Assembly (NCBI GenBank): GCA_003150615.1
Contig: QALN01000004.1
Coordinates: 106,517 to 170,516 of the forward strand
DNA: 64,000 nt
Source of the DNA: Flavobacteriales bacterium
GTDB lineage: Bacteria; Bacteroidota; Bacteroidia; Flavobacteriales; UBA1820
Direction: 5' to 3'
A model generated the notes under the pieces. That model was not told the origin of the DNA. It did not search any database and saw only the letters and a program-made list of their open reading frames with translations. Position numbers and translations under genes: made by a program. Positions 25,482-64,000 of the stretch are shown one piece after another; the first letter of the stretch is position 1; each line of letters starts with the position of its first letter.

Positions 25482-26066
25482 ATGGAAAGCCGGAAATATA
25501 ATCAATGGATTCTACACACGGTGTGTATATCTGCCGCATTAATTTGCATCGTTTTGACGTTCTGGGGTAATTTTAAATCCGGAGGAGTAATAACGATCGA
25601 CGCCTACATAGGCGTAATGGCTACTTTTATCGGCATTTGTGCGGCTATCGTCGTTGGTTTTCAGTTGTATAGTTATTTTGAATTCAGAAGGCTGAAAGAG
25701 CGTATAGATAAAGCGGAGGCTTTGAAGAATGAATGGGACGATGAAATGCATATAACGAAAAAAGGAGTAGCCAATGCTTTCCGTTTGTTATACAGACTTA
25801 ACCGTGCCAATCCCATCGCTCCGGTCATGGCGGTCGTATCTATCCTCACTTACGATTTGAAAAGAATCGATAAAGACACGTCAAGATTTATGAGAAGCAG
25901 ATACCGGCAATTGGATTATATGCTTGGAAAATGTAACTATAATCACCGTTTGCTGAAAAAATACATACCGGATTTAAGGGCTATGGAAATACCGAAAGAA
26001 CTCGAACATTACAAGGAAATCATAAAATTGCATTACAAGGTGATATCCGGTATTGAAAATGCTTAG
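25482..26066 (+). CDS. hypothetical membrane protein with two N-terminal helices
   Basis: 194 residues, not recognised. Two hydrophobic segments (about 10-28 and 42-66) are followed by a basic, helical cytoplasmic part: a short coiled coil (FEFRRLKERIDKAEALKNEW) and a C-terminal region rich in Lys, Arg and Tyr. The region before it (25300-25480) is AT-rich and shows no clear regulatory site. It stands alone between the riboswitch operon (divergent) and a terminator. The topology resembles small membrane-bound accessory proteins, but no function can be given. Confidence 0.7.
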   Translation: MESRKYNQWILHTVCISAALICIVLTFWGNFKSGGVITIDAYIGVMATFIGICAAIVVGFQLYSYFEFRRLKERIDKAEALKNEWDDEMHITKKGVANAFRLLYRLNRANPIAPVMAVVSILTYDLKRIDKDTSRFMRSRYRQLDYMLGKCNYNHRLLKKYIPDLRAMEIPKELEHYKEIIKLHYKVISGIENA

Positions 26067-60579: not shown

Positions 60580-61461
60580 TCAGGAATTTCTGTATTTAGT
60601 GGGCGCCATACCCGTCAGTTGTTTGAAGTAACGGCCGAAAAAAGATTGGTTGGCGAAATTGAGCTCTTCGCTGATTTGCTGTATCGTCATGTCCGAGGAG
60701 CGCAACAGGACTTTGGCCTGAAGCAGTACGTAATCGTCGATAAGTTGCCCGGCTTTTTTGCCAGTGACGGCTTTAAGGGTGGCGGAGAGGTACTTCGGCG
60801 TAAGGAATAGCTTGTCGGCATAGAACGATACGGAACGGCTGTCCTTATAGTGTTTCATCAACAGGCTCATAAAGTTCTTGCATATTTCGTCCTTGCGCGA
60901 GAGTTTCTTATTGTTTTTAGGCAGGTACTCCCCGTAAAAGGATGTCATTTCCATGAAAAACGCACCGACCAGGTTCTGTATTATTTCCTTTTTCATCTTG
61001 TCGGCCGGATTTCTGACCCGTTCCCTCAGGAATGAAAAATATTCGTGGAACAGGTGGATCATATCGTTGTCCACAGGCATGCACGGATTGTCGCGCAGAG
61101 TAAAAAAATCCGAAATATCGCCATGCCGCATGGTGCGCGTACCGGCGTCGGACAGAAGACGTGTGGACATGTATATGCATTTACCGGAGAAATCGGCACT
61201 GTGTTCCTTGTACTGAAGTATCTGGCCGGGCAGGATTATGGCTATATCGCCAGCCGAAATACGGTAATCTATCAGGTTTATTCCTATTTCCATCTTTCCG
61301 GCGGTACATAATATAAATAACAACCCTTCCATTTTGTATGGAGAGTTGCCTATCATAACGCGGTCGAACTGATCGAATACCGCAAAATAATCGTTTATCT
61401 TATCTATAGCATCGAAATCTTCCACACTGTCGGTATCGGAGCCGATTTTATGTATATTCAT
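60580..61461 (-). CDS. AraC family transcriptional regulator
   Basis: 293 residues. N-terminal cupin-like sensor domain (about 40-135; ISAGDIAIILPGQI), a linker, and a C-terminal AraC domain with two helix-turn-helix units: SVSFYADKLFLTPKYLSATL (about 215-234) and MTIQQISEELNFANQSFFGR followed by YFKQLTGMAPTKYR. The target is unknown; it is divergent from no gene and stands upstream of the kinase (126 bp gap, same strand). Its promoter is at 61491. Confidence 0.92.
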   Translation of the reverse strand: MNIHKIGSDTDSVEDFDAIDKINDYFAVFDQFDRVMIGNSPYKMEGLLFILCTAGKMEIGINLIDYRISAGDIAIILPGQILQYKEHSADFSGKCIYMSTRLLSDAGTRTMRHGDISDFFTLRDNPCMPVDNDMIHLFHEYFSFLRERVRNPADKMKKEIIQNLVGAFFMEMTSFYGEYLPKNNKKLSRKDEICKNFMSLLMKHYKDSRSVSFYADKLFLTPKYLSATLKAVTGKKAGQLIDDYVLLQAKVLLRSSDMTIQQISEELNFANQSFFGRYFKQLTGMAPTKYRNS

Positions 61462-61490
61462 TTATTATCTATCTGAAATCCGTTATAATA

Positions 61491-61521
61491 CAAACATACG
61501 AATTTTTGAATTAGTCCCAAA
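61491..61521 (-). promoter_or_regulatory. promoter of the AraC regulator
   Basis: Minus strand TTTG (61518-61521), 19 bp spacer, TATGTTTG (61491-61498), 30 bp before the start. Confidence 0.65.
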
Positions 61522-61602
61522 ACCCATGCATACACACGGAATCGACAGTAATATTTTCTGGATACTCATGGCGATGGCAGTATTACCGCCAGGATCATTT
61601 AT

Positions 61603-62154
61603 TTACTCTTCATACACAACATCATCTACCGGCTGGTTATTGCCATAGTATTTTACCCTGTAAATCTTTACGGAGTCCCGTGTCACTTCGCCGAAATCAG
61701 GGTTTTTGTCGATAAAGAACACACGTTTGTCCTGGAGTGTATTGGTAAACTCCCATATCTCTTCCTTGGTCTTTGCCGAGAACATCTCGTCTATGTCTAT
61801 GACATTATTATTCTCAAGGAACGAAACAGGCTCGGTACGGACATACAGGCTGTCTTCCCATGTCAACTCCCTATATGTCCTTAAAACCTCAAAATTATAC
61901 TCGGCATATACGAAGTATGCCTGGGCTTTATTTTCATTTAAATATGAAAAGTTTATGGGGTTAATTTTATCTGTATCATGCATTTCCATAGTGTGCCTAT
62001 GAACCCCATTTCTGACATAAGTATCACTATTTATAGATGTGAATGTCAGATATATTGGCGCATACGGAGAATTGTTGTCATCATCGCGCTGGGCGTATGA
62101 TGATATTGTTGTTATCGCAATTAAAAGGCTGAGGGTGAATATCAGTTTTTTCAT
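61603..62154 (-). CDS. secreted array protein A, copy 1, unknown function
   Basis: 183 residues from MKKLIF at 62154; a longer frame to 62184 runs into the leader hairpin. Signal peptide 1-21 (ends SSYAQ). Mature protein beta-rich, acidic, no Cys-based anchor; segments YLTFTS, VIDIDEMF, KEEIWEF and FIDKNPDFGEV are shared with the next two genes. Nucleotide sequence is the same as copy 4 (63432-63983) except one synonymous base (61672). Not recognised as any known family. Confidence 0.75.
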   Translation of the reverse strand: MKKLIFTLSLLIAITTISSYAQRDDDNNSPYAPIYLTFTSINSDTYVRNGVHRHTMEMHDTDKINPINFSYLNENKAQAYFVYAEYNFEVLRTYRELTWEDSLYVRTEPVSFLENNNVIDIDEMFSAKTKEEIWEFTNTLQDKRVFFIDKNPDFGEVTRDSVKIYRVKYYGNNQPVDDVVYEE

Positions 62155-62175
62155 GGTACAGAAAAGAGTATAATA

Positions 62176-62201
62176 CCCCGGCAAATATATACTTGCCGGG
62201 G
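62176..62201 (-). promoter_or_regulatory. leader hairpin before copy 1
   Basis: ccccggcaa (62176-62184) pairs with ttgccgggg (62193-62201), 22 bp before the start at 62154. The loop contains a minus-strand TATATTTG (62182-62189). Confidence 0.65.
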
Positions 62202-62210
62202 GTAATAAAT

Positions 62211-62762
62211 TCAGTTTCTGATAATAGCGTCATTTTTTGGAGGTCGATTTGTTCCGAGGCATTTAACCTGCGTTACCTTTACGCTGTCATCGGTTATCTC
62301 TCCGAAATCCGGATTTTTATCCACAATGTAGATTCTTTTTCCTCTCCACGTTTCTACTATTTCCCATATTTCCTCTTTTGACATTCCGGAAAAAAGTTCG
62401 TCAATATCTATGAAATTGTTCTCTTCCATAAATTTGATAGGGTATGTGGCTACGGTAAGAGAATCATCATATTGAAGTTCTCCGCCCATGTCCCTTCTCC
62501 TGTATTCGAGATCAAGTTCGACATATATTAAAAATATTGAAACATTTGAATCTGCATTTTGGTATGTGTAATTAATAGGGCGTGATATAAAAGGATGAAT
62601 TTCATCCCCAAAATTTCTGTAAACACCGTTTCCTATGTTTTCATATCCGGTTTTGGATGTGAATGTCAAATACAAAGGAGGATGTTCCATGTCTTCTTCC
62701 TGTGAATATCCGTTAAACACAGATGCTATTATGATTGTGAGGATGAATATCAGTTTTTTCAT
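62211..62762 (-). CDS. secreted array protein B, unknown function
   Basis: 183 residues, MKKLIF start at 62762, signal peptide 1-20 (ends NGYSQ). Same skeleton as A (YLTFTSKTG, FIDIDELFSGMSKEEIWEI, IVDKNPDFGEITDDSVKV) with an ending GTNRPPKNDAIIRN shared only with B'. The middle (about residues 48-75) differs strongly from B'. Membrane or enzyme motifs are not seen. Similar length to the others; preceded by a hairpin leader. Confidence 0.75.
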   Translation of the reverse strand: MKKLIFILTIIIASVFNGYSQEEDMEHPPLYLTFTSKTGYENIGNGVYRNFGDEIHPFISRPINYTYQNADSNVSIFLIYVELDLEYRRRDMGGELQYDDSLTVATYPIKFMEENNFIDIDELFSGMSKEEIWEIVETWRGKRIYIVDKNPDFGEITDDSVKVTQVKCLGTNRPPKNDAIIRN

Positions 62763-62783
62763 GATATAGAAAAGAGTATGATA

Positions 62784-62807
62784 CCCCGGCAAGTATATTT
62801 GCCGGGG
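62784..62807 (-). promoter_or_regulatory. leader hairpin before copy B
   Basis: ccccggcaa (62784-62792) pairs with ttgccgggg (62799-62807), 22 bp before the start at 62762. Confidence 0.65.
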
Positions 62808-62816
62808 GTAATAAAT

Positions 62817-63371
62817 TCAGTTTCTGATAATAGCGTCATTTTTTGGAGGTCGATTTGTTCCGGCGTATTTTACTTGAGTTACCTTTACACTGTCCTCAGT
62901 TATCTCTCCGAAATCCGGATTTTTATCAACGATATATACTCTTTTATCTTCCCATGTACTTACAATTTCCCATATTTCCTCTTTGGACATCCTGGAAAAA
63001 AGTTCGTCAATATCTATGAAATTGTTCTCTTCCATAAATTTGATAGGGTATGTGGCTACGGTAAGGGAGTCGTCGTAAAGTAGCTCTCCGCCCATGTCCC
63101 TCCTCCTGTATTCGAGGTCAAATTCAACGTACAATAAATGCACTGAAACATTTACATCTGCATTTCTATATGTATAGTAGATAGGCAATGTTCTATACAT
63201 GGGCCATAGTTTGTTTGCCTTATTTTTGTAAACACCGTTTCCTATGTTTTCATATCCGGTTTTGGATGTGAATGTCAAGTACAAAGGAGGATGTTCCATG
63301 TCTTCTTCCTGTGAATATCCGTTAAACACAGATGCTATTATGATTGTGAGGGTTAATATCAGTTTTTTCAT
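62817..63371 (-). CDS. secreted array protein B', unknown function
   Basis: 184 residues, start at 63371, signal as in B. Residues 1-46 and 85-184 nearly match B; residues about 48-75 (KNKANKLWPMYRTLPIYYTY versus RNFGDEIHPFISRPINYTYQ in B) are diverged. Charged changes also occur around WEIVSTWEDKR. Not recognised. Starts after the same kind of leader hairpin (63393-63418). Confidence 0.75.
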   Translation of the reverse strand: MKKLILTLTIIIASVFNGYSQEEDMEHPPLYLTFTSKTGYENIGNGVYKNKANKLWPMYRTLPIYYTYRNADVNVSVHLLYVEFDLEYRRRDMGGELLYDDSLTVATYPIKFMEENNFIDIDELFSRMSKEEIWEIVSTWEDKRVYIVDKNPDFGEITEDSVKVTQVKYAGTNRPPKNDAIIRN

Positions 63372-63392
63372 GATATAGAAAAGAGTATGATA

Positions 63393-63418
63393 CCCCGGCA
63401 AGTATATATTTGCCGGGG
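63393..63418 (-). promoter_or_regulatory. leader hairpin before copy B'
   Basis: ccccggcaa (63393-63401) pairs with ttgccgggg (63410-63418), 22 bp before the start at 63371. Confidence 0.65.
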
Positions 63419-63431
63419 TGGGGTGGTTTAT

Positions 63432-63983
63432 TTACTCTTCATACACAACATCATCTACCGGCTGGTTATTGCCATAGTATTTTACCCTGTAAATCTTTAC
63501 TGAGTCCCGTGTCACTTCGCCGAAATCAGGGTTTTTGTCGATAAAGAACACACGTTTGTCCTGGAGTGTATTGGTAAACTCCCATATCTCTTCCTTGGTC
63601 TTTGCCGAGAACATCTCGTCTATGTCTATGACATTATTATTCTCAAGGAACGAAACAGGCTCGGTACGGACATACAGGCTGTCTTCCCATGTCAACTCCC
63701 TATATGTCCTTAAAACCTCAAAATTATACTCGGCATATACGAAGTATGCCTGGGCTTTATTTTCATTTAAATATGAAAAGTTTATGGGGTTAATTTTATC
63801 TGTATCATGCATTTCCATAGTGTGCCTATGAACCCCATTTCTGACATAAGTATCACTATTTATAGATGTGAATGTCAGATATATTGGCGCATACGGAGAA
63901 TTGTTGTCATCATCGCGCTGGGCGTATGATGATATTGTTGTTATCGCAATTAAAAGGCTGAGGGTGAATATCAGTTTTTTCAT
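63432..63983 (-). CDS. secreted array protein A, copy 2 (fourth array gene)
   Basis: 183 residues, protein identical to the gene at 61603-62154; DNA differs only at 63501 (T for G, synonymous Ser codon). Signal peptide 1-21. The start and the first 17 bp of its leader are in the window, but the hairpin expected upstream is beyond the end. The near-zero divergence from copy 1, while B and B' differ a lot, points to recent duplication or gene conversion. Confidence 0.8.
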   Translation of the reverse strand: MKKLIFTLSLLIAITTISSYAQRDDDNNSPYAPIYLTFTSINSDTYVRNGVHRHTMEMHDTDKINPINFSYLNENKAQAYFVYAEYNFEVLRTYRELTWEDSLYVRTEPVSFLENNNVIDIDEMFSAKTKEEIWEFTNTLQDKRVFFIDKNPDFGEVTRDSVKIYRVKYYGNNQPVDDVVYEE

Positions 63984-64000
63984 GGTACAGAAAAGAGTAT

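Follow-up and report, generated by a model that had tools for sequence, protein, structure and literature searches.

What use a bacterium might make of a tandem run of small exported proteins that belong to no named family is the question raised by four genes at the right end of a 64,000-nucleotide (nt) stretch of contig QALN01000004.1 from a Flavobacteriales bacterium (hereafter the window). The original prediction, made from the DNA alone, described four related genes in the order A-B-B'-A, on one strand and with a common leader, whose products of about 183 residues share a skeleton of short motifs; it named no family for them and guessed at a role in immunity, antigen variation or binding. 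We tentatively read the array as a recombining repertoire of exported recognition or binding proteins that would be deployed together with DUF5128 lipoproteins.

An array of exported paralogs

The array occupies positions 61603-63983 of the minus strand and consists of four complete head-to-tail open reading frames (ORFs), transcribed in the order A2 (63432-63983), B' (62817-63371), B (62211-62762), and A1 (61603-62154). Each gene is 183 to 184 codons long, and the spacers between them measure 54 to 60 nt. The first visible gene, A2, and the last gene of the array, A1, differ at 1 of 552 bases and encode identical exported proteins of 183 amino acids (aa), while B' (184 aa) is 84% identical to B (183 aa) and 45% identical to A. 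The products begin with a Sec-type signal peptide (MKKLI...YAQ or YSQ) without a lipobox, as judged by eye and with no predictor, and all four carry the skeleton YLTFTS ... IDIDE-F ... KEEIWE ... DKNPDFGE. A 29-nt leader and start motif occurs four times in the 64 kb at up to three mismatches, compared to no occurrence in 100 shuffles. With a G+C content of 0.379 against a window mean of 0.494, the array is also the lowest 2.4-kb stretch, ranking first among 308 overlapping windows. These genes, their leader and their skeleton are as originally predicted. The claim that the array runs off the window holds in part: the region upstream of A2 continues beyond the right end, but A2 itself is whole.

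Within the wider family, which falls into three subfamilies of about 183, 177 and 160 aa, the constant parts are the signal peptide, the YxTFTS strand and the C-terminal half with IDxD and DKN, and the variable parts are residues ~41-88 and the tail. In each of the three subfamilies taken separately, residues 41-80 and the tail showed high column entropy and residues ~101-165 showed low column entropy, the contrast being less marked in the 160-aa subfamily. In the window, the hypervariable block lies at 63720-63863 in A2 and at 61891-62034 in A1 (residues 41-88 in both, from column entropy), at 63114-63263 in B' (residues ~37-86), and at 62508-62654 in B (residues ~37-85), all on the minus strand and with positions mapped by hand. 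Residues 149-160 of A2 (63432-63983) read DKNPDFGEVTRD, which we take to resemble a DxNxD calcium loop; the 160-aa subfamily does not conserve the second Asp of this loop.

A comparison of B with B' revealed that identical and diverged blocks alternate along the two genes. They differ at 78 of 549 sites and share three unbroken stretches (72, 72 and 52 nt), which 6, 0 and 0 of 20000 shuffles, respectively, could match. Synonymous divergence (dS) was 0.045 in the N-terminal part, 0.80 in the variable part and 0.51 in the C-terminal half, implying gene conversion, because selection on the protein alone would not yield such a jump.

Relatives of the array proteins

Like the original prediction, we could name no family for these proteins. 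The array proteins gave nothing above the cut-off in Pfam or NCBIfam and nothing in PHROGs; PADLOC models returned 0 matches for A, B' and one DUF5128 protein at an E value of ≤0.1, and the Pfam model PF17170 (DUF5128) did not match A, B or B' at an E value of ≤10. A fold search on structure predictions, which the original prediction had proposed, gave the same answer. AlphaFold models the family with mixed strands and helices (mature part of B: predicted local distance difference test [pLDDT], 85.8; predicted template modeling score [pTM], 0.80), and two fair models had no significant match in the PDB. There was a weak structural resemblance to sortase-type beta-barrels, with Z far below significance, and the invariant or nearly invariant columns of the family alignment hold none of the Cys, His and Arg on which sortase catalysis depends.

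Protein searches returned 37 proteins from 69 candidates with B' as the query, 95 from 2286 with a 13-row alignment (E ≤ 0.01) and 100 from 3422 with a 66-row alignment (E ≤ 1), counts that include fragments and a few weak rows; by these searches, the family appears nearly closed at ~100 clusters. Only three database members carry an organism name, in each case Flavobacteriales bacterium. One protein, P0101 (150 aa, on an 8.5-kb contig), stands apart as a distant fourth type: at 22% identity, it still has YVTFTS and YFIDKN. It may represent the family's root or a sister.

The ABC transporter of the window matched 45 loci, two of them close at 79-80% identity. These two belong to G001, a metagenome-assembled genome (MAG) from water buffalo cecum, and G002, a MAG from water deer colon, and the placement of the window organism near them rests on this single protein. 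A whole-genome search found the array family in three of the four genomes of G001's small family, and in the same three of 395 genomes in its order, with four intact dispersed copies in G001, one in G002, a single broken copy in G003 and none in G004. The original prediction had looked to related genomes for the same array: the family is indeed present in G001, G002 and G003, but its copies in G001 and G002 are dispersed and mostly neighbored by DUF5128 genes, with no toxin recognized. In G003, the sole copy (L056:10065-10560, contig C149) is disrupted close to the start, with tRNA-Gly/tRNA-Tyr genes on one side and a BspA-type leucine-rich-repeat gene on the other.

In a sample of the class, G001 was the sole accepted carrier among 395 genomes. 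Seven genomes matched at an E value of ≤0.01, and the six matches outside G001 (E values of 0.0018-0.0089) were judged to be chance matches to signal peptides; no ORF with the YxTFTS and FIDKN marks was found at those six loci (ORFs of at least 100 aa, up to six longest per locus). A profile of A1 detected no relatives in genome contigs and viral contigs at the sensitivity used, a result that does not exclude distant relatives, because such contig pattern scans missed the G001 and G002 copies that the whole-genome search found. No match to the family was found by tblastn in phage and plasmid collections, and the family is not described in the accessible portions of the open-licence PubMed Central (PMC) papers found on Bacteroides propellers (including PMC10434189) or on surface-protein exchange. 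As far as sequence can indicate, it would be an undescribed, lineage-restricted family of gut Bacteroidota whose members are periplasmic or secreted and not lipidated.

Modular variation and its selective regime

Clustering of the 92 of 105 sequences that were at least 150 aa long yielded 11 N (leader), 24 V (variable), 8 M (mid) and 16 tail types, which occur in many combinations. One variable type recurs with several tails; V3, for example, is found with T2, T3 and T4. Pairs in which the variable part was at least 95% identical and the tail at most 70% identical numbered 27 of 741, 29 of 780 and 5 of 78 in the three subfamilies, including at least one artifact (P0001 with B', from a truncated end). 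The mosaic pattern is independently present in the window genes and in the G001 and G002 copies. Along the five dispersed copies of these two genomes, the variation in identity exceeded that in all 1000 shuffles in nine of ten pairs and that in 995 of 1000 in the tenth, with unequal constraint along the protein adding to this variation.

We then considered substitution rates among the same five copies. The ratio of nonsynonymous divergence (dN) to dS in the variable part was 0.14-0.45 in nine of the ten pairs, and in the C-terminal half it was 0.05-0.18 in all ten. The tenth pair, G001 C42 and G002 C32, represents the only orthologous site, and here the variable part had a dN of 0 over 59 codons, with a dN of 0.085 in the leader and 0.026 in the C-terminal half. 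In this one pair, the variable type looks like a locus identity, kept while the scaffold would have been exchanged.

Antigenic or phage-receptor variation, in which fast-changing surface proteins evade immunity, phages or predators as the Opa loci of Neisseria do, would fit the constant frame with its hypervariable segment, the dispersed and tandem copies and the modular recombination. We nevertheless regard it as unlikely. The dN/dS ratio is below 1 among paralogs, and the variable region is the best-conserved part of the orthologous pair, a weak point since dS is low there as well. Tandem Repeats Finder (minimum score, 30) returned 0 rows of phase-variation kind for positions 61400-64000, the short A6-A7 runs that follow the start codons of the array genes not having been tested as slip sites. 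Given that the array holds no repeat tract and that the single orthologous pair is stable, we did not file it as antigenic variation.

Neutral concerted evolution would instead make these genes dosage duplicates of one exported protein, with the variable part simply the least constrained and devoid of specificity. Tandem duplication and gene conversion alone can yield mosaics, and dN/dS was below 1 in all computable pairs. However, the variable types are discrete and recur with several tails, one of them is protein-identical in two species while its flanks have changed, and the variable position is the same in three subfamilies, which together leave this account with only a small chance of being right.

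Genomic company in G001 and G002

In G001 and G002, the array-family genes sit at dispersed chromosomal sites, and four of the five intact genes directly adjoin a DUF5128 gene (G001 C1, C8a and C42 and G002 C32; the adjacency at C42 was read from the 3' end of a DUF5128 gene upstream of it). DUF5128 proteins are six-bladed beta-propeller lipoproteins (PF17170) of ~440 aa with a lipoprotein-type N-terminal Cys by eye. Their link with the array family is known from the relatives and is not visible in the window sequence. Among 14 control genomes, 3 carry PF17170, including one Bacteroides, and neither PF17170 nor DUF5128 is named in any paper found among open-licence PMC papers.

The two kinds of gene share a leader. 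A 17-nt leader motif matched 15 times in G001 and G002 with at most one mismatch, and 12 of these matches precede array-family (4) or DUF5128 (8) genes, compared to 0 matches for a control pattern; seven of the eight DUF5128 genes were found in the PF17170 search, and the eighth is a 65-codon contig-end fragment assigned by similarity. With the DUF5128 gene of G001 C71 as the reference, the shared upstream block measured 169 nt (98% identity) before the array-family gene of G001 C1 and 103 nt (79%) before that of G001 C8. It measured 165 nt (92%) and 168 nt (87%) before DUF5128 genes at two other G002 sites, 195 nt (87%) and 110 nt (94%) at two further sites (G002 C2 and G001 C72, respectively), and only 43-44 nt before the two array-family genes that stand second in a pair. 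The block is absent before the array-family gene G1C8b and before the DUF5128 genes G2C12 and G1C136.

The DUF5128 paralogs are themselves mosaic, with a variation in windowed identity greater than that in all 1000 shuffles in four of four pairs. Between G001 and G002, they are 66-76% identical at three of four matched sites and 94% identical at the fourth; within one genome, six of seven compared pairs are 82-96% identical and one is 61% identical; and G1C136 and G2C32, although at different sites, are 97% identical (stretches compared, 330-1323 nt, several cut by contig ends). Two DUF5128 types thus occur in both species with their places changed, which is not simple within-genome homogenization. 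Because contigs C71, C72, C1, C8 and C136 of G001 and C2 and C36 of G002 end inside DUF5128 genes, these MAGs may hold more copies than were assembled. Directly upstream of the DUF5128 gene on G001 C136 is a gene (L112:993-1370) whose 126-aa product looks exported, contains several cysteines and has no match in Pfam; this gene does not appear in the ORF list (at least 80 aa) of the matching G002 stretch.

An array of immunity genes against the secreted toxins of competitors, which small exported paralogs in tandem and an accessory distribution would suit, is very unlikely, given that no toxin or secretion gene was recognized among the neighbors read in the window, G001, G002 and G003 (names partly by eye), that PADLOC gave no match and that the recurrent neighbor in relatives is DUF5128. 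Of the three roles first guessed at, a binding repertoire is left as the most likely, with no toxin recognized among the neighbors, no phase-variation repeat found in the array and, in the orthologous pair, an unchanged variable region.

Insertion sites, spacers and flanks

Comparison of G001, G002 and G003 (G004 was not resolved at these sites) showed that the same intergenic site can differ in content between species. Here the names FtsE, MlaD, LepA, DnaJ and amidase were given by eye, and the G002 acyl synthase is a Pfam match. The interval from the acyl-synthase gene to the FtsE-like ABC gene is empty in G003, where it measures 96 nt and the acyl synthase is divided between two contigs. 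In G001 this interval holds an array-family gene, and in G002 it holds a DUF5128 gene that points the same way with respect to the synthase; the two inserts have no leader in common. In G001, the region 5' of the MlaD-like gene holds an array-family gene and part of a DUF5128 gene that extends to the contig end; in G002 and G003, an amidase gene lies directly upstream. Beside glycogen synthase and tRNA-Arg, G001 carries the array family together with DUF5128 and G002 carries DUF5128 alone, and the 290 nt between the LepA-like gene and glycogen synthase in G003 contain neither. Selfish or mobile cassettes, that is, short transcription units that insert between genes and spread via shared upstream homology with little benefit to the host, would explain the low G+C content, the empty and occupied sites, the differing contents at one site and the common upstream block, but they are highly improbable, since the coding sequence is under purifying selection and no integrase or recombinase, terminal repeat or target duplication was noticed at the sites, though no dedicated search was made.

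Every spacer of the array holds a strong hairpin on the minus strand. These lie at 63393-63418 between A2 and B' (spacer fold, -19.5 kcal/mol; z, -5.4), at 62784-62807 between B' and B (a 24-nt form placed by hand; -18.1 kcal/mol; z, -4.9), and at 62176-62201 between B and A1 (-19.9 kcal/mol; z, -3.8), the last being the reverse complement of the A2-B' form. The gene-sense strand carries TATATTTG only in the B-A1 hairpin, and the opposite strand carries it in the other two spacers. The -7 box of Bacteroidota promoters is TAnnTTTG, which TATATTTG of the B-A1 hairpin would fit; this box is not rare in the window, given 55 occurrences against 41 expected. The mutually inverted forms may reflect inversion of the hairpin during replication or a promoter effect. 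The array spacers contain no T-run, and a scan for sigma-70 promoters and terminators yielded fewer of them than the shuffles did on average; the hairpins may be processing sites, terminators or promoters. Integron-like cassettes were considered for the regular spacers and set aside, no attC-type site being seen by eye and no dedicated search having been made, and two Rfam matches to a Listeria small RNA, both in coding sequence, were discarded because they scored 20.4 bits where the cut-off is 100. The spacer hairpin and B', used as queries, had no match in viral contigs.

Immediately downstream of the array, on the same strand, is an AraC-family regulator gene (60580-61461). We consider it probably independent rather than a regulator of the array, because its best relatives in G001 and G002 (48-49% identity) have no array-family gene in the ~1.5 kb read on each side. 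No SusD-type neighbor was recognized in the visible flank of the array. Elsewhere in the window, an isolated low-G+C gene (39%; 25482-26066) encodes a 194-aa protein that looks membrane-anchored by eye and has no Pfam match.

Discussion

The genetics and distribution of the array family are direct observations, and on them we would build the reading toward which we lean, that of a recombining repertoire of exported binders. Each protein would be a constant scaffold on which a beta-sheet region (residues ~41-88) and the tail vary. Tandem copies would arise by unequal exchange, as A1 and A2 suggest, and gene conversion would even out the scaffold in places while discrete variable types, limited in number, are retained and recombined with different tails. 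What a given copy binds would depend on its variable region, and the resulting repertoire may be deployed in the cell envelope alongside DUF5128 lipoproteins, with which the binders perhaps form partnerships.

Several points weigh against this reading. The family is dispensable, given that the G003 copy is single and broken and that G004 has none. The linkage with DUF5128 is seen in two relatives only, and there is no DUF5128 gene in the window. Among the five intact copies of these relatives, G1C8b has neither the leader nor a DUF5128 neighbor, and of the other three matches to the 17-nt motif, two stand before FtsX-like genes and one before a glycosyltransferase-like gene, all named by eye. 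Short metagenome contigs are the source of many mosaic proteins in the databases, and some of these are possibly assembly chimeras, which may raise the counts of pairs with like variable parts and unlike tails. Diversifying selection is not demonstrated, because the variable part has a dN/dS ratio below 1, and in the pair G001 C42 and G002 C32 this part has the lowest dS as well (0.10 versus 0.31 and 0.23), so that the unchanged region may mean recent shared ancestry or exchange rather than selection. Binding, location and partnership are what we infer.

A bolder proposal is that the array family and DUF5128 form one two-component combinatorial envelope recognition system, and we think this rather improbable. 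Both kinds of gene would be cassettes with a common control block at dispersed sites, their contents depending on the species, and both proteins would be constant scaffolds whose variable faces are shuffled by gene conversion. The two have in common the leader and chromosomal sites in G001 and G002 and a similar mosaic of constant and variable parts. They differ in that DUF5128 proteins are unrelated in sequence, ~440 aa long and furnished with a lipoprotein-type Cys.

The closest known pattern for the repertoire that we favor is multi-locus variation of the Opa kind. The Opa proteins of Neisseria are described as dispersed, multi-locus, mosaic surface proteins (PMC13183285; PMC2265424). The likeness lies in several complete-gene loci in each genome, some of whose copies are nearly identical, in a constant frame that holds variable regions, and in recombination. 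However, the array family is unlike Opa in sequence and has no matching predicted fold. Opa is an 8-stranded outer-membrane barrel. The array-family model has mixed strands and helices and gave no significant match. The Opa-type repeat lies in the reading frame, and the array has no repeat tract for phase variation. The array-family copies in relatives, moreover, mostly adjoin DUF5128 lipoprotein genes, and their orthologous variable region is conserved between two species. Surface proteins of Porphyromonas gingivalis are reported to undergo domain rearrangement and allelic exchange (PMC5266723); these are virulence factors of another Bacteroidota lineage and are likened here by description, not by sequence.

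If the array is the repertoire that we tentatively propose, it would add to the uncultured gut Bacteroidota both a protein family without a significant fold match and a mosaic repertoire system, and it would offer a first testable handle on the DUF5128 lipoproteins. Should the variable face set specificity, the 24 variable types would be a ready panel for ligand finding.

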